DNA of 64,000 nucleotides, from contig WQZB01000015.1 of assembly GCA_009780955.1 (NCBI GenBank), forward strand, positions 1-64,000, given 5' to 3'. Source of the DNA: Polyangiaceae bacterium (GTDB lineage Bacteria; Myxococcota_A; Polyangia; Polyangiales; Polyangiaceae). The notes beneath the pieces are model-generated. The model had not been told where the DNA came from and searched no databases. It saw nothing but the letters and a program-made list of their open reading frames with translations. How positions within the stretch are numbered: position 1 is the stretch's first letter; each line of letters begins with the position of its first letter. Both the position numbers and the translations under genes were made by a program. Of the stretch, positions 2,081 through 12,779 are shown piece after piece.

Positions 2081-3313
2081 TCATAAGTCATCGTCCACAT
2101 CGCCAACCGTCGCCAAATCCACCACCGAGTCGACAAGCCCTTCCACGGTCGACGACGGCGGATCCTCGTCTTGCGCAATGCCAAAATTCGGAACGCGCAC
2201 GCGTGCAGCATGCATGTGTTCGCCGAGCTCGATGCGCCAAAAGGATGGATCGTCGCCGCTACGGCAGCCGAGCGTTAGCGAAGGCGAAGCAAGAATCGTG
2301 AAGTTCGTTCCTGCTGGTTGACGCTGCTCGCTCACGTGCCTGTGCCCGTGAAGCACTGCGGTCACGCCAAGCTCGTCGAAGATCTCGGCAGCCTGCTGGG
2401 CATCGTCGAGACGCATGCCGATTTCGCTTGGCGGGCGACGACCAACGCCGTGAGGCAGTGGCACGACGTGGTGATGAAGGAGCACAAGGCGATGCCTTGC
2501 CGCGCGAAACTCGCGGCTCTTTCCGATTTCACGAAGGTAGGTGAATTGCTCAGGCCCAATGGCACCGTTGTGGCGGAAAAACCGACGCTGAGGACGAGCG
2601 CACGAATTTAGCCCAATGAGCACGGTCTCTTTGTCGGGCAAGGGTTTGTACCACGCGCCCGACGCGTCGAGATCCATCCCAATGCGTGCCGCAAAGGCTT
2701 GCCACGCCGCGTGCTTCGAGGCGTGCGTTGGCCGCGGCCGCCCGCTGCCGCGCATGGGAAAAAGGTAAAGATCATGGTTTCCGGGAACGGCAAAAAGCAT
2801 CCCCTTGCGCTTCCACCTGTCGAACACTGACTCGACGAGTTCCCATCCAACACCGTCGTCGGTGATGTCGCCGGTAACGACAACCGCGTCGGCGTCTTCG
2901 ATGGCATTCGCAGCGCGCACGAGGCGCACATTGGAGTTACGCGGTGTTCCCTCGTACAAGTGCTTGAGCGCGGCTTCGGAGGGAACATTGCTTCCTAGTT
3001 GCGACGCCCTTCGCGCCTCGAGATGGCATGCCTTTGCGGCCGCGCGCTCGACCGGATCCACCACACCGCCACTTGCTTTGAGCGACGGCACCGAGTGCGT
3101 GTAGCCTTGAGGGTCGACCAGAACGATCTTCCCTCGACGCTTGCCGCGTTCGTGCAAAACACGCCAGCCTGCTTCTTCCCACACGACCTCGAGTTTCGCA
3201 TCGCTATCGATCGCAATACGCGCGCTGCGCTTCACCACACGCAGGCGGTCGTGAAACGTATCGCCAAACTCGGAGATATGAAAATCCGAGACGTGCGCGA
3301 CGATGAAACTCAC
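2081..3313 (-). CDS. calcineurin-like metallophosphoesterase
   Basis: A 410-residue protein with the ordered motifs of the calcineurin-like phosphoesterase superfamily. They are D10-x-H12 (HVSDFHIS), GDITDDG, GNHD, a histidine cluster LLHHHV and C-terminal GHRHV, which together bind a dinuclear metal centre. It probably hydrolyses a phosphomonoester or phosphodiester; cyclic nucleotide and nucleotide-sugar substrates are possible and the sequence does not decide. I chose the GTG start at 3313 because it lies one base after the upstream lipoprotein's TGA and leaves the motif SFIVAHVSDFH near the N-terminus. A longer reading frame overlaps the neighbour without homologous-looking sequence. It is probably translationally coupled to the lipoprotein gene. 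Confidence 0.88.
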   Translation of the reverse strand: MSFIVAHVSDFHISEFGDTFHDRLRVVKRSARIAIDSDAKLEVVWEEAGWRVLHERGKRRGKIVLVDPQGYTHSVPSLKASGGVVDPVERAAAKACHLEARRASQLGSNVPSEAALKHLYEGTPRNSNVRLVRAANAIEDADAVVVTGDITDDGVGWELVESVFDRWKRKGMLFAVPGNHDLYLFPMRGSGRPRPTHASKHAAWQAFAARIGMDLDASGAWYKPLPDKETVLIGLNSCARPQRRFFRHNGAIGPEQFTYLREIGKSREFRAARHRLVLLHHHVVPLPHGVGRRPPSEIGMRLDDAQQAAEIFDELGVTAVLHGHRHVSEQRQPAGTNFTILASPSLTLGCRSGDDPSFWRIELGEHMHAARVRVPNFGIAQDEDPPSSTVEGLVDSVVDLATVGDVDDDL

Positions 3314-3314
3314 G

Positions 3315-3794
3315 TCACATGCCAGCGAGGATCTTGAACGACTCGCCTTCGGGCACGAGCTCGAGGCGATTGTCGGCAACGGTGTGCTTCCACTCTTCGC
3401 CCTTCAAGCCAGGGATGCGATAGCTTGCCGTGTAGCTAAACTCGACAAAAACTTTCTTGGTTTCGTCTTTGGCAATGCGCCGGTAGCGGATTTCGTAGCG
3501 GATAGCCTGCGTTTTCACGAACGTGGTGGTGAGGTAGCTTTTGAGGCCATCGTAGTCGAGATCGTCTTCGGGGTTCGTGTTGCCTCCGTCTTCGAAGTAG
3601 CGAAGGCTTGCCATCTTCAGCAGACGCCCGATGTTTTTTTCTTCAACGGCCTTTCGGTAGTCTTCGCAGAACGAGATCACCTTACGGTTGTCGCTCGTGT
3701 CTTCCACGTCGGTGTTGGGAATGTACGACTTCGAGCAGCCGATAGCGCCAAGCCAAACGACCAGCAGCATGGCAAAAAGAAAAAATTTGTGCAT
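3315..3794 (-). CDS. lipoprotein, SnoaL/NTF2-like fold possible
   Basis: A 159-residue protein from the ATG at 3794. The signal peptide MHKFFLFAMLLVVW leads to lipobox LGAIGC. The mature protein is charged and short (about 140 residues). The pattern 'FCEDYRKAVEEKNIGRLLKMAS' reads like the first helices of an NTF2/SnoaL-type fold, where a cone-shaped domain follows 'yr.A.e.kd...l..l.S'. That fold assignment is inference. Upstream in-frame ATGs (3842, 3818) would add residues before the signal peptide and are unlikely. The next gene starts one base after its stop, so the two are co-translated. No enzymatic motif is visible. Confidence 0.7.
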   Translation of the reverse strand: MHKFFLFAMLLVVWLGAIGCSKSYIPNTDVEDTSDNRKVISFCEDYRKAVEEKNIGRLLKMASLRYFEDGGNTNPEDDLDYDGLKSYLTTTFVKTQAIRYEIRYRRIAKDETKKVFVEFSYTASYRIPGLKGEEWKHTVADNRLELVPEGESFKILAGM

Positions 3795-3842: not shown

Positions 3843-3881
3843 TTAGCACTACTGCCGGGAATTCCCAGGCAGTAGTGCTAA
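3843..3881. terminator. strong stem-loop at the 3' end of the ketosynthase operon
   Basis: A 14-bp perfect stem (TTAGCACTACTGCC at 3843-3856, its complement at 3868-3881) encloses a loop that is itself palindromic (GGGAATTCCC). The stem includes the TAG of the ketosynthase gene. No clear T-tract follows on the minus strand, so it may act as an mRNA 3'-end stabiliser or a Rho-assisted terminator. Confidence 0.5.
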
Positions 3882-5911
3882 CGAACTCGCGGGAGCGACA
3901 AGAACCGTGCATAGGCGCGGATCCCCCACGGCGTTACAACCGACAGCTCCAAGGGCCCACGAGCCGCGACATCGGCTGCACGCCGCGCTTCATTCTGCGC
4001 TTCATGGTGCCAAGGCACCCGGGCGAGAGGCAACAGCGCGCGGTGCGCGTCCATCGCGGAGGGAGCAGGGAGCGGGCCCGTTCGGTCGCTTTTTTCGAGG
4101 CGAACAGAGCACTCGACGAGTTCGCCAGCAAGCGGGGTTGCGGCAACCATGAGCGCGACGGCGCCGGGTACCGTGTCAGGGGCTACATGGCGCGATAAGT
4201 CACCTGCTTCGTCTGCCGCAACCACGATGATTCGATCGGCCGTGCCCGTGCGCACGAGATCAGCGGCAACGCTAAGCGCTTCGATACCGCCGTGCGGACC
4301 ACCACCAACAGCAAAAGCAGGTCCATTGAGCCCGAACGCCACCGCGCACTCGCCAGCGGCAGCGTTCGGTGTCGTGTACGGGAAGCGTCGAGGCTCACCG
4401 CGATGCGCACCGGCCGAGCGAATGCGCTCCAGGTATTTTGCGTTCGTGTCGAACGTGGCAAGGCCGTGACCAACGATGATCCCAGCCCCTCGAATGCGCG
4501 GTTGCTCTCGCGCCGAAAGCGCCTCGTCGAGCAACGCTACGGCCGCCATGGTGAGACGAACGAGATTGTCGGAGCGCAGAATGCGATCCTCGGCGTAGCC
4601 CGTGCGAGCCGCGAGAACAGACGGGCTAACGAGATCGCCGCGAGCGCCATCGCCCGAAATGGCAACCGCACGCGAAACGTAGACCGGCCGATCGCGACGC
4701 TCCAGGCCGGTGCATAGGCTTTTGCCGACTGCATTCTTCGCAAGGACGAGCGCAGCGTTCGCGCCACCAAAGGCTGCAGACAGCTTGAGCGTGATCGCGG
4801 CCGACGAGGCTTCGGCGACATCGAGCACGCGAACGCCATCCATCACCGTGCCTTCACCCGCGGATGCGGGTGCCAAGCCTGTGCGCATCGCAAAAAGCGC
4901 GGACAGCGATTCGAGCGCACCGGCAGCTCCAAGTGTGTGACCAACCGATCCTTTGAGCGCGTGCACGGCCACGCGCGATCGATGCTCGCCAAGCACGGTG
5001 GCAAGCGCGCGCGCTTCGGAGGCGTCGTTGAACTCCGTCGCTGTCCCGTGCGCACTCACGAGGTCGACATCGGCTGCCACGACACCGCAAGAGCCAAGCG
5101 CTTGGGCTGCTGCGCGTGCAAGCCCGCCACCCGTTCGATCGGGCGCAGTCAGGTGTATCGCGTCGCACGATGCACCAAAGCCCGTCACCCATCCATACGT
5201 GCGCAGGTGTCGGTCGGCCGCGCAATTGGCAGAAGCGAGAGCCATCACTGCCGCGCCTTCACCAAGCACCAGGCCATCGCGGCCGACACGAAATGGATCG
5301 GGCTTGCCGTCGGCCGACGTTGCGCGCAGCACTTCGAAACCGGAAGCAACGAAAACGCTCACCGCATCGAAGCCGCCCGCAAGCACCACATCGCATGCGC
5401 CGGTTTCAAGCCACGCGTGGCCAAGCCCCACCGCGAGTGTACTCGATGCGCATGCGCCGAGAACGAGCGCAAATCGTGCGAACGAGCACGGGCGATGAGT
5501 AGCGAGCACGGGCCCGAGGTAGCTGCCTTCGATCCAACCGCTTGGCGGCGGATCCGCAGTACTTGCAAAAGTCTCCTCGAAACGGCGCATTCCTCCGCTC
5601 GAAGTGCCGAGCACGAGACCCATGCGCACCTGGCTAAGGTCCGGCATGATCTCGCCGAGATCACGGACGCATGCATCGAGCGCACGCTCCAGCAGCACCG
5701 TGGCCCGATCAGGCGCTGCAGGTAGTAGGGGCGTATGGCCATACGCCCCTACGCGTGCGCAAAACGGACGCGCAAGCTTCGCTTCCAAAAGCTCCGCGTC
5801 GCGCGCGATCGCGAGCGGCGCTCGATGTCCTTCGGGCACGCAACCAAGGGCCTCTTGCCCCTCGCCAAGTGCCGACACAGCTCCAAATGCCACCACCGCA
5901 CTCGCTGTCAT
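3878..5911 (-). CDS. beta-ketoacyl synthase with degenerate second ketosynthase half and inserted palindrome peptide
   Basis: A 677-residue protein. Residues 1 to about 400 form a complete ketosynthase with the Cys-His-His triad: C154 (GACASSTLA), H288 (SAHGTATEF) and H325 (KGSVGHTLG). Residues about 415-677 look like an N-terminal ketosynthase half in which the active-site Cys position reads GGGPHGG, so it cannot condense. A chain-length-factor-like or structural role is an inference. Residues 54-62 (VGAYGHTPL) are encoded exactly by an A-type palindrome at 5725-5752, in a loop before the conserved helix. The start ATG overlaps the lipoprotein TGA (ATGA), indicating translational coupling. 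With the ACP and second KS it resembles the KS set of aryl-polyene-type lipid clusters. Confidence 0.85.
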   Translation of the reverse strand: MTASAVVAFGAVSALGEGQEALGCVPEGHRAPLAIARDAELLEAKLARPFCARVGAYGHTPLLPAAPDRATVLLERALDACVRDLGEIMPDLSQVRMGLVLGTSSGGMRRFEETFASTADPPPSGWIEGSYLGPVLATHRPCSFARFALVLGACASSTLAVGLGHAWLETGACDVVLAGGFDAVSVFVASGFEVLRATSADGKPDPFRVGRDGLVLGEGAAVMALASANCAADRHLRTYGWVTGFGASCDAIHLTAPDRTGGGLARAAAQALGSCGVVAADVDLVSAHGTATEFNDASEARALATVLGEHRSRVAVHALKGSVGHTLGAAGALESLSALFAMRTGLAPASAGEGTVMDGVRVLDVAEASSAAITLKLSAAFGGANAALVLAKNAVGKSLCTGLERRDRPVYVSRAVAISGDGARGDLVSPSVLAARTGYAEDRILRSDNLVRLTMAAVALLDEALSAREQPRIRGAGIIVGHGLATFDTNAKYLERIRSAGAHRGEPRRFPYTTPNAAAGECAVAFGLNGPAFAVGGGPHGGIEALSVAADLVRTGTADRIIVVAADEAGDLSRHVAPDTVPGAVALMVAATPLAGELVECSVRLEKSDRTGPLPAPSAMDAHRALLPLARVPWHHEAQNEARRAADVAARGPLELSVVTPWGIRAYARFLSLPRVR
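5725..5752. repeat. A-type palindromic module inside the ketosynthase ORF
   Basis: A perfect 28-bp palindrome: arm GTAGGGGCG, core TATGGCCATA, arm CGCCCCTAC. It is read in frame as VGAYGHTPL by the ketosynthase gene. Identical copies lie at 12642, 33787, 57980 and 62400. Confidence 0.95.
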
Positions 5912-6750
5912 TGGGAGGCTCCTTGCGGCTCGTCAGGATCGTCGAACGCAGCAGGATCGGGCGGCGCAGGGGCAACGTCTTCGACCACCACGTCGACGAC
6001 GAGACCCGTACGCTCGTCGGTATATCTGCCACGCGCACCAGCACAAGGCTTTATCCGGCTTTCGACTTGAAAGCGGTCGAGTGTGCAGGGCAGCCACGAA
6101 ATGCGTTCGACATTTTCGCCTTCACGGCGAAGGGCAATGAGCTCGCTGCTGCCCGCGCGCACAGTCACGATCGCGCGATCGTCTTTGAGCAAAAACGATG
6201 TCTCGTCTGGACGCGAGTGCGCCGCGAGCAGCCGACCGCTTAGTGGCGAGAGAAACCACCAGCGAAAAAAACCTACAGGCAGGCCACGCGTGAGTTCTGG
6301 CAAAGTGGCTCCTCGCTTTTCGAGATGGATGGCCGGCACAGCGAAGCGAAATCGATCCTCTCTCACCCAAAGATCGAGCGCGGTCGTGCCTGCTGGGCCC
6401 AAGAGGATCATGCGCACCGTAGAGCCAGGGCTGATGGCCACGGCGCCACGTGCTTCGTAACTGCTTTTCGTGCGCGGATCGGTGATGCGAACGCGAACAT
6501 GCTCGACGTACGGCGTGCGCGGCAGCTCTGCGCGAAGGGCATTCAGGCGCGCACGCGAAAGGCTCCACGCGGGCGACGTTGCATCCAATGTATCCATGCC
6601 CATTCGCTGGTCTTGCCGCCCTTGTCTCGAAGGCGGCATCGGCGCAAGCGATCCCCAAACGCGATCCGCATAGACCGGAGGACCACAGCCAATGGCGCCT
6701 GGCACAAGCAACATCGCAAGCCTCGCCCAATGCACACCAGCCCGGCGCAC
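5908..6750 (-). CDS. outer-membrane lipoprotein of the ketosynthase cluster (LolB/DUF3261-like)
   Basis: About 280 residues from a GTG at 6750, four bases after the upstream KS stop. The ORF is open further upstream and an ATG at 6714 is an alternative. The signal peptide MLLVPGAIGC is a lipobox. The mature protein has the layout of a LolB-like half-barrel: 'RVRITDPRTKSSYEARGAVA', 'VRMILLGPAGTTALDLWVRE', then 'FRFAVPAIH' and 'PVGFFRWWFL'. LolA-like and DUF3261 lipoproteins accompany KS/ACP genes in aryl-polyene clusters (established), where they are thought to help move the lipid product to the outer membrane. The same role here is inference. It lies between two KS genes with coupling on both sides. 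Confidence 0.7.
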   Translation of the reverse strand: MRRAGVHWARLAMLLVPGAIGCGPPVYADRVWGSLAPMPPSRQGRQDQRMGMDTLDATSPAWSLSRARLNALRAELPRTPYVEHVRVRITDPRTKSSYEARGAVAISPGSTVRMILLGPAGTTALDLWVREDRFRFAVPAIHLEKRGATLPELTRGLPVGFFRWWFLSPLSGRLLAAHSRPDETSFLLKDDRAIVTVRAGSSELIALRREGENVERISWLPCTLDRFQVESRIKPCAGARGRYTDERTGLVVDVVVEDVAPAPPDPAAFDDPDEPQGASQ

Positions 6751-6754
6751 GCTC

Positions 6755-8986
6755 TCACCCGAGCGGCTCGCGAAGCAAGAGCGCGTAGCCCGAGCCCCGC
6801 GCACTGCCCACGCATAGCGCCGACGTTGCCTCGCCGCGGGCAATCATCGCGGAGGCCACGGCCACGGCAATGCCCCCAACAGCTTCATGCGAACCTGCAT
6901 GATCGCTGCAAACCACACGCGGACAACCTGCCCACGATGACCGTGCGATATACTCGTCGACCGCATCGTTCGGGGCTCCCACAACGACGACGCTGCCCGC
7001 CTCGGGCGGCCTCGCGAGTGTCCGCTGGCCAGGATTGGCTTCATCGCCTGCCCACGCAACCACGTCTTCGATTTCGGCAAGAATCGGCGAGCCGCTCGCG
7101 CGCGCTGCTTGTTCTGAAGAAAGCAAGATGGCTGCGGCTCCTTCGCGACGCGCCGTGGTCGCGCCCGAGGTGGGCGCCCCAAACAGCACACTAAGCACCT
7201 GTTCGACAATCACGCTTCGCTCCTCGACTGCCACCACGACCGCGCGATCCATTTCGCCGGCGCGTACGAGCTCGAAGCCGTGCGTCACCGCGCACTCGCC
7301 CGACGTTGCGAGATCGGCAACGACCATCGCAGGGCCTTTCAGACCCAAGTAGATGGAAACGTGACCCGCTGGTGAGCTCGGAACAAGGCTCGGAAAATCC
7401 GCGGGGCTTACCAGGCGCGGGCCCTTTTCGGCAAGGCGGCGCATGAACGCCGACGTTGCGTCGACGGCGCCGAAGGCCGAGCCAAGGATCACCCCTGCGT
7501 CCTCGGCAACAACCCCTGCAAGCGCCTTGCGTGCTACCACGGTGGCAATACGCGATGTCCGGTCGAGCCGCCGCGCGCGATCCGCGTCGAGCCCGCCAAG
7601 CACATCGGCGTCGATTGCCTCGCCAGAAGGCGGCAGCAGCGGCAGCCTCGATACTTCGACGCCGTCGAGCAATCCGGCCGGCGTGAGCGTGGCAACGCGG
7701 GTGATAACGACACGACGACGTGCAGGCTGCCACGGTACTTGACCGTTTGCCGAAACCGCTGCAAGCGCATGGCCGAACAGAAGCACGGAATCCATCCCAC
7801 CAAAGCCGAACGAGTTCGAAAGTGCGGCGCGGATCGTGCGTTTGCCTGCAGTGCGCACATGATGCAAGGAGCACGCTGGATCGGGATCGACGAGGCCGCC
7901 GGTGGGCGGCACTTCTCCCTTGTCGATCGACATCGCGGTGAGGGTCGCTTCAATGGCGCCGGCGGCTGCCAGCGTGTGGCCGATTTGCCCCTTGCAACTC
8001 GAGACGGGCACCCGCGACAGGTCATCGCCGAAAACGCGGGCAAGTGCCGTTGTTTCCATGGGATCATTGAGTGGGGTGCCGGTGCCGTGCGCGTTGACGT
8101 AGTCGATGTCGGCCACGGTGAAGCCGGCACGTGTGAGAGCCGCCTCGATGGCGCGAGCAGGTGCTTGCCCGGAAGCGTCGGGGTTGGTGATGTGGTGCGC
8201 CTCGGAACGCGATGCCCAACCGCGAAGCGTGCATATGACACGCGCACCCCTGGTTCGGGCAGCTTCGACGCGCTCGAGTACGAGAAAGCCGGCACCTTCG
8301 CCGAGCGTGAGACCCTTGCGGTTCTTGTCAAACGGCCGAGCACCATTGGGATCGAGTGCGGACAATGCATGGAAGCCGCTCATGGTCACCTTGCAGAGCG
8401 CGTCGGCCGCCCCGCACACCACTGCGTCAACGAGATCTAACTCGAGCCATGCCGCGCCAACGATGATCGCGTTCGATCCGCTCGAACATGCGCTCGACAG
8501 GGAGCGCACGCGAGCAAACGGTCCGAGCTCACGCGCGAGCCTGTCGGTGGGCGCGCTCAACGGATGACTCAGCATGCGACAGAGCGCTTGTTCGCGTATC
8601 ACCGGATCGACCGTGCCCTCAGGACGGATAAGCACCGAGAGAATCGACTCGGTTTCGAACATTCCAGCGGTTGACCCGCCCATGACGAGCCCTACGCGAA
8701 GGCCCGCCCATGGCACGCTCGTGCCCACTACATCGCGCGCGAGCCCGGCGCACTCGAGTGCTTCGCGCGCAGCAGCGAGACCGATCTCGCTCGTTCGCGA
8801 AATGTCACCACCGGTCTGACGCGAGACCACGCCAGCCACCTCGCCTACAATCCGTGAGCGGTAACCGTCGGCCGCAAAAAGTGAAATTTCACGAAAGGCC
8901 CGGTCGCCGCGAAGCAAACGCTCCCACGTCTCGACGGCCGATCCGCCGAGCGCCGTGACAGCCCCAAGCCCAGTGACGGCAATCAC
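6755..8986 (-). CDS. beta-ketoacyl synthase (FabF-type) with degenerate C-terminal ketosynthase half
   Basis: A 743-residue protein. Residues 1 to about 405 are a FabF/KASII-like ketosynthase with triad C167 (SSACSSGSN), H300 (NAHGTGTPLND) and H337 (CKGQIGHTLAAAG), and the usual 'ITGLGAVTALG'-type opening. From about residue 425 a second ketosynthase-like region follows (VITRVATLTPAG..., GVILGSAFGA, 'LKGPAMVVADLATSGE'). In it the Cys position is Ala/Thr, so it is catalytically dead. The domain order matches the other KS of this operon, so the two are paralogues that diverged after the fusion. GTG start, overlapping the ACP stop (GTGA). Probable role: decarboxylative condensation on the neighbouring ACP. 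Confidence 0.87.
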   Translation of the reverse strand: MIAVTGLGAVTALGGSAVETWERLLRGDRAFREISLFAADGYRSRIVGEVAGVVSRQTGGDISRTSEIGLAAAREALECAGLARDVVGTSVPWAGLRVGLVMGGSTAGMFETESILSVLIRPEGTVDPVIREQALCRMLSHPLSAPTDRLARELGPFARVRSLSSACSSGSNAIIVGAAWLELDLVDAVVCGAADALCKVTMSGFHALSALDPNGARPFDKNRKGLTLGEGAGFLVLERVEAARTRGARVICTLRGWASRSEAHHITNPDASGQAPARAIEAALTRAGFTVADIDYVNAHGTGTPLNDPMETTALARVFGDDLSRVPVSSCKGQIGHTLAAAGAIEATLTAMSIDKGEVPPTGGLVDPDPACSLHHVRTAGKRTIRAALSNSFGFGGMDSVLLFGHALAAVSANGQVPWQPARRRVVITRVATLTPAGLLDGVEVSRLPLLPPSGEAIDADVLGGLDADRARRLDRTSRIATVVARKALAGVVAEDAGVILGSAFGAVDATSAFMRRLAEKGPRLVSPADFPSLVPSSPAGHVSIYLGLKGPAMVVADLATSGECAVTHGFELVRAGEMDRAVVVAVEERSVIVEQVLSVLFGAPTSGATTARREGAAAILLSSEQAARASGSPILAEIEDVVAWAGDEANPGQRTLARPPEAGSVVVVGAPNDAVDEYIARSSWAGCPRVVCSDHAGSHEAVGGIAVAVASAMIARGEATSALCVGSARGSGYALLLREPLG

Positions 8987-9279
8987 CTTTTGCCGCGGGC
9001 GCCACGGGCGAATTCTACGAATTCGGCGAGCGAGCTCACGGAGCGGAAAATCGGCCGGGCCTCGTCACCCTCCGGAACGCGGACGCCGAACCGCTCTTCC
9101 ATCAGCATGGCAACTTGCAGCGCGTCGAGTGAGTCGAGCCCAAGCCCGTTGGGCCCGCCCGCGCCGCTCTCACCGAAGAGCGGAGCGTCGTCATCGAGCG
9201 TAGCCGGATCCCGCCCCGCAAGGTTCAACTCGGAGACGAGAAGTTTCTTGATTTCGTATTTGAGGTCGGTCCGTAACAT
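8983..9279 (-). CDS. acyl carrier protein
   Basis: A 98-residue protein starting at the ATG 9279 (MLRTDLKYEIKKLL). The phosphopantetheine attachment site is S50 in GLGLDSLDALQ, followed by the usual helix 'VAMLMEERFGVRV'. Its length is a little above the housekeeping ACP, and it lacks the acidic FabC context (no fabD/G/F beside it). It therefore looks like a dedicated carrier for the two downstream ketosynthases, to which it is coupled by a GTGA overlap. The reading frame is open further upstream, but that part has no ACP character. It follows the DUF1704 gene by about 50 bp, so a shared transcript is possible. Confidence 0.9.
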   Translation of the reverse strand: MLRTDLKYEIKKLLVSELNLAGRDPATLDDDAPLFGESGAGGPNGLGLDSLDALQVAMLMEERFGVRVPEGDEARPIFRSVSSLAEFVEFARGARGKR

Positions 9280-9328: not shown

Positions 9329-10918
9329 TCAATTGCGGGCGAAGAGCTTCGTGTAATACCCGCTAATGGCCTCACCGCCGAGGCGCGTGAAAAAAGTCGA
9401 ATACGCCATCCAAATGGCAAGGCCATTCAGGTCGCGAAACATTGGCGGCAAGAAACGGGGGGGCTTGACAACGCCTTCGTTGACGCGCCTGGCGAGGACC
9501 GGAACGTCTTCGTGCGCGACTTTGCCAACGAAGAGAAACGGAATCAAGTCAACGCGGTTGTGTTGAATGGCGCTGCGGATAAACGAGTAGTTGAGGACAA
9601 CGCCTTTGCAGTAGCACGCGTCTTTCGTGAACGGTGCGCCTCCGTCGACCACACCTCCGCGGAAAATGCGGCGTGTGTTGTGGAAGCACTCTTCTTCGTC
9701 GTAGCCTTCGGTGCGAAACCACTCGAAAACGTCGTGGAAGCTCGCACCGTCTTCGGCCTTGTCAACGGCGATGACGCGATCGTTCAAGCGGCGCGCACGC
9801 CTGGGGAACGTGCGAAAGGTAAAGATCTCGCAGAGTGCAGCGAGCCCTTCTTGCACCGTGGTCGTGCGCGGCGGCCCTTTGCTTAGCCACTTGGCAACGG
9901 TTTGCGCCTGGCCATTGAGCGATGTTGCAACATGCACCCAACCTTCATGCACCTCGAGAATGTCGATGTCGCGCTCCGAGAACTTTGCGCCCGAGCGCAC
10001 CTTGACGTAGTCGCTGCCTGCAGCGGCATCCGAAAGGATTGTGTCGTCGATGGCAACACGCACGGCCGCATCGTCGAAGTAATGCGAAAAGCGCCGGTTT
10101 AGCTCGGCAGCGGCGTCGACGGCCGCGATGTTGCGCTCGTAACGCAGGCCAAGCAGCGCGTCGTCGATGTTGGTGAGGATCTCGTAAAGAACGTGCCCGA
10201 GATCGCGAACCGATGTTTTGCCGTCGGGAAACTTGTCTTTCGGCGATCCGTAAAGCTTGCGCGAATACGCATAGAAAACCGGCGTGCCGCGCGCGGCGAG
10301 CATGCGAACGACATCGCGGTACTCGAGAGCGGTACGCGAGAGAATGGCACCGATGGCGTCGGACTCGCCGAGCTCGCGGTCCACGTCACGTGCAATTTCC
10401 TCGAAAAGCGCGGCCTGATCTTTCGGGTCGAACCCGAGCTCGGACGACTTGGCGTAGTAGTCGGCGTCGAGCTTCGGTAGCTCGCGGTACTTCGACTTGC
10501 GAAAAAACTCCTCGATGGAATTGTCCCAGCGCACGGCCTGCAGCACGCGAATGGGCCTTTGCGCTTCGACGATGCGGCCGGCAATCTGCGCGACGATTTC
10601 TTTGTAGCTACGCCATGGCCCCTCGACGGGCAGCGGAGGAATGGACGGATGTGGTACCTCGTCAGGAGGTTGCGCGGGCGCACCACCCTCGTGCGCCTCG
10701 TGCGGAACATGCTTTTCCGCCTTTGCGTCGCTTTCGGCGCGCTCGGCCTTGGCCTCTTTTCCCTCGCGTCCCTCGCGAGATTCGCGATCCCACTTGGCAC
10801 TCGACTCGCGGTCCGGCCTCGCGCTAGCGTCTCGATCGTCTTTACCTTTACGACGTTCGCTTTCTCCGACTGAAGCGCGTTCGCCCAAAGTAGCGTATCT
10901 TTGCCACGGAAATGCCAC
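9329..10918 (-). CDS. DUF1704 / QEGLA-motif putative metallo-carboxypeptidase
   Basis: Up to 529 residues. The first ~90 are a Lys/Glu/Arg/Asp-rich low-complexity stretch. The rest matches the DUF1704 (TIGR02421, 'QEGLA') family: zinc-site-like HEGWVH at 324-329 and the name-giving QEGLA at 356-360, whose Glu is the expected third ligand. The eukaryotic member of this fold, MATCAP, is a tubulin tyrosine carboxypeptidase (established). Bacterial substrates are unknown, and the older note 'flavohemoglobin expression-modulating' is weak. The start is uncertain: 10918 would overlap the start of the divergent gene at 10912 by 7 bp. A GTG about 50 bases further in (residue 17) would remove the conflict. 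The N-terminal charged tail may be disordered. Confidence 0.82.
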   Translation of the reverse strand: MAFPWQRYATLGERASVGESERRKGKDDRDASARPDRESSAKWDRESREGREGKEAKAERAESDAKAEKHVPHEAHEGGAPAQPPDEVPHPSIPPLPVEGPWRSYKEIVAQIAGRIVEAQRPIRVLQAVRWDNSIEEFFRKSKYRELPKLDADYYAKSSELGFDPKDQAALFEEIARDVDRELGESDAIGAILSRTALEYRDVVRMLAARGTPVFYAYSRKLYGSPKDKFPDGKTSVRDLGHVLYEILTNIDDALLGLRYERNIAAVDAAAELNRRFSHYFDDAAVRVAIDDTILSDAAAGSDYVKVRSGAKFSERDIDILEVHEGWVHVATSLNGQAQTVAKWLSKGPPRTTTVQEGLAALCEIFTFRTFPRRARRLNDRVIAVDKAEDGASFHDVFEWFRTEGYDEEECFHNTRRIFRGGVVDGGAPFTKDACYCKGVVLNYSFIRSAIQHNRVDLIPFLFVGKVAHEDVPVLARRVNEGVVKPPRFLPPMFRDLNGLAIWMAYSTFFTRLGGEAISGYYTKLFARN

Positions 10919-12641: not shown

Positions 12642-12779
12642 GTAGGGGCGTATGGCCATACGCCCCTACGCACAATTCGCGTTTGGCGCGTTTTGTTGGT
12701 TGTAGGGGCGCGATTCATCGCGCCCCCGGATCGGCCAATGGTATGTGCCTCGGTGGGGCGCCATGAATGGCGCCCCTAC
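12642..12779. repeat. composite palindromic element, order A-B-C
   Basis: Three hairpin modules. A (12642-12669) has core TATGGCCATA. B (12702-12727) has core CGATTCATCG and lost the final TAC. C (12752-12779) has core CCATGAATGG and a slightly altered left arm. A and B are separated by 32 nt containing GCGTTTTGTTGGTT, the complement of the conserved spacer seen elsewhere. The element lies between the DUF507 and yicC genes, ending 14 bp before the yicC ATG, so it could sit in the 5' UTR of yicC. Confidence 0.93.

Follow-up and report, generated by a model that had tools for sequence, protein, structure and literature searches.

Polyunsaturated fatty acid (PUFA) synthases of the PfaC type carry a ketosynthase (KS) and a chain length factor (CLF) in tandem in one polypeptide, followed by further domains such as a FabA-like dehydratase. 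Aryl polyenes are yellow pigments. In the aryl-polyene systems of Xenorhabdus, Acinetobacter and E. coli the ApeO-ApeC pair elongates the chain and ApeR complements it, according to two reports (PMC8358021, PMC8253772). The first of these describes ApeC as a single thiolase domain, the second having been nearly lost, and proposes that its Arg30/Arg31 pair docks the acyl carrier protein (ACP) (Lee et al. 2021, PMC8358021). A KS with a short partner is reported to carry out a single C2 elongation and a cyclization in cispentacin biosynthesis (Nat Commun 2023, PMC10698177). Here we compare these systems with an operon found in a window of 64,000 nucleotides from a Polyangiaceae bacterium (GenBank assembly GCA_009780955.1, contig WQZB01000015.1, positions 1 to 64,000). 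The source genome is a 4.2-Mb draft, 98.7% complete, in 112 contigs.

Genes for an ACP, a first KS protein (KS-A), a probable lipoprotein (c3) and a second KS protein (KS-B) form a minus-strand run from 9279 to 3878, with joints of -4, +4 and -4 bp. This bears out an earlier note on the sequence, which described an ACP and a lipoprotein coupled with two KS genes through overlapping or near-overlapping joints. We propose that the unit is probably a minimal type II polyketide/fatty-acid condensing module, in which two single-chain KS-CLF enzymes would work on a dedicated ACP. The parts of the unit are as follows.

8983..9279, minus strand: ACP, 98 aa, PF00550 at 32.2 bits, of the aryl-polyene ACP type (PRK09184-like), attachment Ser50 in GLGLDS
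8986-6755, minus strand: KS-A, whole gene, 743 aa, PF00109 and PF02801
7751..8986, minus strand: KS-A N half, full ketosynthase, Cys167/His300/Lys332/His337
6755..7750, minus strand: KS-A C half, fused CLF-like domain without the Cys, Arg-Arg pair present
5908..6750, minus strand: probable lipoprotein c3 of a lineage-specific family, 280 aa counted from a GTG start
5911-3878, minus strand: KS-B, whole gene, 677 aa, PF00109 and PF02801
4718..5911, minus strand: KS-B N half, full ketosynthase, Cys154/His288/Lys320/His325
3878..4717, minus strand: KS-B C half, fused short CLF-like domain, first thiolase domain recognizable, second reduced

The longest open reading frame (ORF) of c3 opens at 6843, and the 4-bp gap between KS-A and c3 is counted from the GTG start. 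Our home-made gene caller skipped genes in lower-GC loci, including the lipoprotein and KS-B genes of the window itself. The genes of the window were therefore taken from a separate ORF call, and several c3 starts are uncertain.

The N halves of KS-A and KS-B both exceed the PF00109 and PF02801 cut-offs. The catalytic Cys, the two His residues and the Lys are retained in all 37 KS-A models that cover them (a 38th, L043, is truncated and was omitted) and in all 38 KS-B models, confirming the intact Cys-His-His half of each protein. The top NCBIfam model for both is fabF (TIGR03150, cut-off 493.75), with 311.4 bits for KS-A and 184.5 bits for KS-B. The ApeO-type model PRK09185 (cut-off 407) gives 276.5 and 182.8 bits, the ApeR-type model PRK09116 (cut-off 470) 205.6 and 136.7 bits, and AmcF of the cispentacin pathway (cut-off 325) 248.6 and 168 bits. 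Control proteins pass their respective models: Pseudoalteromonas ApeO scores 458.5 bits, Pseudoalteromonas ApeR 728 bits and the FabF of the source genome (contig C12) 542.4 bits.

A careful tree with 30 rows places KS-A, KS-B, the ApeO-type KSs and a Skermanella KS on one side of a branch with support of 100/99. The other side holds FabF, ApeR, Persicobacter KS1, a Streptomyces KS and its CLF, the N halves of fused proteins from Streptomyces and Lachnospira, and a second KS of the source genome. The long-branched rows Rahn_KS and Persi_KS2 were left out of this tree, as were six Polyangiaceae rows to save time. A quick tree that included the two long rows agrees on the ApeO-side placement (Shimodaira-Hasegawa-like approximate likelihood ratio of 99). 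For the quick KS tree and the C-half tree, only some of the Polyangiaceae halves were included; an earlier tree of 93 rows was also made by the quick method. The reference set is small, and the branching order among KS-A, KS-B and ApeO is unsettled in these trees.

The position of the catalytic Cys is occupied in the KS-A C halves by Ala (17), Gly (11), Ser (5), Glu (3), Phe (1) or Gln (1), and in the KS-B C halves by Leu (16), Pro (14) and others, so the earlier description of these halves as Cys-less holds. A CLF block of the form P-x-x-F-P-x-x-x-P-(S/N)-x-x-x-G is present in the C halves and aligns with SPTxFxxSVHNAAAG of ApeC; the aligned block reads SPADFPSLVPSSPAG in KS-A, EPRRFPYTTPNAAAG in KS-B, SPTGFGLSVHNAAAG in Pseudoalteromonas ApeC and SPAVFPNTVFNAAAG in a Streptomyces fusion. 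An Arg-Arg pair is invariant in 21 of 21 KS-A rows at the position of the ApeC pair, and KS-B retains one Arg. The two kinds of C half are homologous (hhalign probability 99.3 over 190 columns), with a grouping support of only 81. The ApeC family PF13723 (cut-off 25) matches the KS-A C half with 24.1 bits in one search and 26.3 bits in another. On the KS-B C half, AmcG gives a weak match of 26.8 bits (cut-off 80). Across seven pairs, the ratio of nonsynonymous to synonymous substitution (dN/dS) was 0.12-0.33 for the C halves and 0.07-0.33 for the N halves. Because the CLF block is kept and dN/dS is near that of the active halves, the C halves do not look decayed; judged by these features they are working CLF-like partners under purifying selection. 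They had been called dead, which holds for KS chemistry, the Cys being replaced, but not in the sense of decay. On that reading, each enzyme would be a KS-CLF dimer within a single polypeptide.

The ACP of the window scores 60.9-61.3 bits against NCBIfam NF006617 (PRK09184; cut-off 70). The best PRK09184 match is the ACP of the unit in all 11 unit-bearing genomes searched, and it exceeds the cut-off in seven of them. Ser50 and the GLGLDS motif are invariant among 11 aligned ACPs, three of which come from aryl-polyene-type plasmid clusters. A tblastn search of plasmids with the ACP returned 37 records, every one below 60% identity. All four that were inspected hold KS/ACP clusters. The one in Pseudoalteromonas is a classical aryl-polyene cluster, those in Persicobacter and Roseomonas are related to this type, and that in Rahnella is an ACP/KS cluster of another kind. 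The ACP family, the ApeO-side KSs and the CLF halves together bear out the kinship with a stripped-down aryl-polyene kit that had been suggested for this operon.

Gene order was compared in 42 loci (the window, L007 and L038-L077), which were selected by a KS-B match and are not a random sample; distribution figures were instead taken from a sample of 377 genomes of the phylum. The order across loci is ACP, KS-A, c3, KS-B and then c1, a downstream lipoprotein gene that was called in 33 loci. ACP and KS-A are separated by -4 to 67 bp in all but one of 31 loci; in that one the gap is 246 bp. The joint between c3 and KS-B is -4 in 17 of 29 loci. ACP, KS-A and KS-B are coupled in gene order. The nearest named record found, the Polyangiaceae metagenome-assembled genome WQYX01000034.1, has 72% identity over KS-B and an identical gene order. 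The KS-A C half is matched with at least 244 bits in 21 of the 377 genomes, 19 of them Polyangiaceae and two of a sister family (f5), and the next score is 122. The c3 family is found in 17 of the 377; one of these, a marginal match, belongs to a different family. The Polyangiaceae and one sister family share the unit as a conserved trait. Dozens of genomes carry these fused genes in an identical order, so the fused arrangement is not a product of chance.

In the mechanism that we propose, the KS of KS-A and that of KS-B would each pair with its own fused CLF, in place of the usual two-protein heterodimer, and both enzymes would extend chains on the private aryl-polyene-type ACP. The primary fatty acid synthase would provide malonyl loading, ketoreduction and dehydration in trans through its FabD, FabG and FabZ. 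The product would most likely be a dedicated chain, acyl or polyene, destined for the cell envelope. In the weakest step of the scheme, the lipoproteins may handle this chain or seat it there. Only the lipoproteins point to envelope delivery, and one of them is dispensable in evolution. By analogy, KS-A and KS-B may divide their labor as ApeO-ApeC and ApeR do, though KS-B is not ApeR-like. Tentatively, we can also see the unit as a second condensing system that the Polyangiaceae have kept vertically and that borrows FabD/FabG/FabZ, with an undescribed acyl or polyene chain of the envelope taking the place of aryl polyenes.

Several observations weigh against this scheme. The KS halves score below the ApeO, FabF, ApeR and AmcF cut-offs, so that only the tree, with its small reference set, places them on the ApeO side. 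C-half profiles match ApeC at just 11.5 and 2.9 bits, and their best non-self matches include the corresponding halves of the Streptomyces and Lachnospira fusions; together with the grouping support given above, this weakens a simple reading of the C halves as fused ApeC. Two AlphaFold models made from two-sequence alignments are of low confidence (predicted local distance difference test scores of 36 and 34, with 34 for the C half) and were kept out of fold searches. Within the window, no ketoreductase, acyltransferase, thioesterase, ligase or exporter was recognized next to the unit (ApeR, ligase, ketoreductase, thioesterase and exporter were not searched for genome-wide). In seven loci c3 is absent and KS-A directly adjoins KS-B, with a -4 joint in five of them. 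In the sister family (genomes G052 and G050; L058-L061) the unit is split, KS-A with the ACP lying apart from c3 with KS-B. Joint action of the parts is therefore not obligatory.

The alternative that survives best, and that we still regard as unlikely, is one or a few condensations followed by cyclization or direct release, as with AmcF-AmcG for cispentacin, instead of a long reduced chain. AmcF-AmcG resembles the unit in that a KS works with a shortened partner lacking the Cys, on an ACP of its own. The short CLF partners, the weak AmcG match of the KS-B C half and the failure to find a dedicated ketoreductase or dehydratase nearby are all in keeping with such chemistry. However, AmcF-AmcG is unfused, the unit stays under both the AmcF and AmcG cut-offs, and no adenylate-forming starter ligase like that of the cispentacin pathway was seen next to it.

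That KS-A and KS-B are divergent FabF/FabB duplicates serving bulk fatty acid synthesis is improbable. Although fabF is their top NCBIfam model, a true FabF is present on contig C12 of the same genome, and the two proteins fall far short of the fabF cut-off. They also have their own ACP and fused CLF halves and are separated from FabF in the tree. Membership of the ordinary FabF/FabB subfamilies, which the earlier note had named as one of two findings that would overturn its view, is not what was observed: the KS halves lie below the FabF, FabB, ApeO and ApeR cut-offs.

Aryl-polyene partner genes were sought in the source genome and its relatives. Neither ApeP (PF22817) nor the LolB-like DUF3261 protein ApeN (PF11659) had a match in the source genome or in ten other unit-bearing genomes; both were present only in the outgroup G180. 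Five of the unit-bearing genomes (G146, G148, G165, G129 and G070) consist of one or two contigs and likewise lack both. The source genome has a single PF07977 (FabA/FabZ) gene, on another contig, and its only PF13723 match is KS-A, no stand-alone copy having been found. With both KS halves under the family cut-offs and no match to ApeP or DUF3261 in the genome, the unit is, on its gene content, not an aryl-polyene cluster; nor did the ApeP, DUF3261 and PF13723 searches find one elsewhere in the genome, which was the other finding that the note had named against its view. The failure to find ApeP and DUF3261 in all 11 unit-bearing genomes searched, alongside a retained aryl-polyene-type ACP and ApeO-side KS, could also describe what decay has left of an ancestral aryl-polyene cluster, now without function, but with all catalytic residues intact, dN/dS well under 1 in both halves and gene order coupled family-wide, we give this very little credence. 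An intact aryl-polyene pathway with its remaining genes elsewhere, the distributed variant suggested earlier, is just as improbable on the families searched genome-wide (ApeP, DUF3261, PF13723 and PF07977): a gene could be missing from the draft assembly, but an ApeP-type dehydratase and DUF3261 were found neither there nor in the genomes of one or two contigs, and the source genome shows a single gene of the FabA/FabZ type.

The condensing module that we favor shares several features with ApeO-ApeC, namely an ApeO-side KS by the tree, a short CLF with one recognizable thiolase domain, an aryl-polyene-type ACP and a lipoprotein gene in the operon. It differs in that KS and CLF are fused, twice, with family cut-offs unmet, and in that no ApeR-type KS, ketoreductase, dehydratase, ligase, thioesterase or exporter was found beside it. 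With the PUFA synthases it shares a KS and a CLF in one chain; those are multi-domain megasynthases, whereas KS-A and KS-B are stand-alone proteins with a separate ACP, carrying KS- and thiolase-type families only and no further domains of the PfaC kind. Discrete fused KS-CLF proteins beside an ACP also occur on Streptomyces plasmids (788 aa, L079) and in Lachnospira eligens (797 aa, L081). Unlike KS-A and KS-B, these have KS halves on the FabF side of the tree, one fusion per locus, and FabD/FabG/FabZ-like genes in their loci. A plasmid search with the Skermanella CLF matched only itself.

The fusion of KS and CLF as such is therefore not new, being found in the PUFA synthases and in the deposited Streptomyces and Lachnospira loci. 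As far as our searches show, what is new are ApeO-side fusions, two per operon, without a dedicated tailoring enzyme alongside and kept in one bacterial family. No publication on the unit was found, judging by titles, abstracts and passages, in the literature on fused KS-CLF proteins, on aryl polyenes of Sorangium or the Polyangiaceae, or on myxobacterial type II polyketide synthases. Aryl-polyene predictions reported for some Polyangiales (PMC11821767) could partly rest on this unit. If our proposal is right, an entire, biosynthetically talented family builds a lipid or polyene from a core of two genes plus an ACP, and standard cluster rules may miscall or miss it. A single-chain ApeO-side KS-CLF would also be a handy subject for studying how chain length is set, since 1:1 pairing is built in and the halves can be mutated separately.

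At the end of KS-B and downstream of it lie the following features.

3843..3881, minus strand: hairpin spanning the KS-B stop codon, 17-nt arms, 94% complementary, 5-nt loop
3315..3818, minus strand: SnoaL/NTF2-like lipoprotein c1, downstream partner in 33 loci, SnoaL_2 in 12 of 20 members
2081..3379, minus strand: calcineurin-like phosphoesterase, PF00149 with E 6.9e-14, after c1 in 12 loci

The hairpin is strong but has no T-run, is present as a single copy within the window and is a possible transcript boundary. The extent of 3878-9279 given earlier is correct for the operon but omits the conserved SnoaL-like gene (3818-3315) directly downstream. By gene order the phosphoesterase is at most a candidate member of the unit.

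No Pfam family beyond chance-level matches was found for c3 in any of 23 members, and by Pfam scan and profile comparison it is not detectably DUF3261 or LolA. A relaxed lipobox is present in 19 of 29 gene models, and a strict one in 5. For c1, the best SnoaL_2 match has an E value of 3.6e-4, and the mean column identity is 56%. Comparison of c3 and c1 profiles by hhalign with the 46 proteins of four annotated plasmid clusters gave a best c3 match, a lipoprotein-sorting protein of Rahnella, that was not significant (P 0.013). Nothing usable was obtained with either profile against PDB sequences. On the Rahnella plasmid (L085), a two-partner secretion pair lies beside AcpS, a short-chain dehydrogenase/reductase, FabZ, an ACP, a KS, an ABC transporter and that lipoprotein-sorting protein, and this ACP/KS cluster may modify an exported protein or lipid.

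The direct neighbors of the unit in the window are genes for a MATCAP protein, the SnoaL-like protein, the phosphoesterase and a 477-aa FG-GAP-like ORF. The genes around the unit, named by reading their sequences, are housekeeping rather than biosynthetic. The MATCAP gene (9329-10918) is a bacterial member of PF08014, microtubule-associated tyrosine carboxypeptidase (E 1.8e-128), and lies near the unit in several Polyangiaceae. In 19 loci, though not in the window, the ACP or KS-A has a divergent enoyl-CoA hydratase-like gene next to it (for example L039:4985-5779). In the sister family, c3 and KS-B adjoin a gene that reads as CdsA-like. Elsewhere in the source genome, contig C46 carries a second, unfused KS-CLF pair (L001:8676-13275), followed near the contig end by a BioF/serine-palmitoyltransferase-like gene; an ACP gene lies close by on the opposite strand.

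A perfect palindrome of 28 bp is repeated in the window.

5725-5752, also at 12642, 14411, 29967, 33787, 57979 and 62400: palindrome GTAGGGGCGTATGGCCATACGCCCCTAC

It has seven copies with at most three mismatches, where none is expected, and its 22-bp core has 89 copies in the genome. Palindromic elements within coding genes are known in Rickettsia, and the palindrome of the window resembles these. The copy at 5725-5752 falls within the KS-B gene, over the codons for residues 54-62, where the L007 orthologue has a different sequence.

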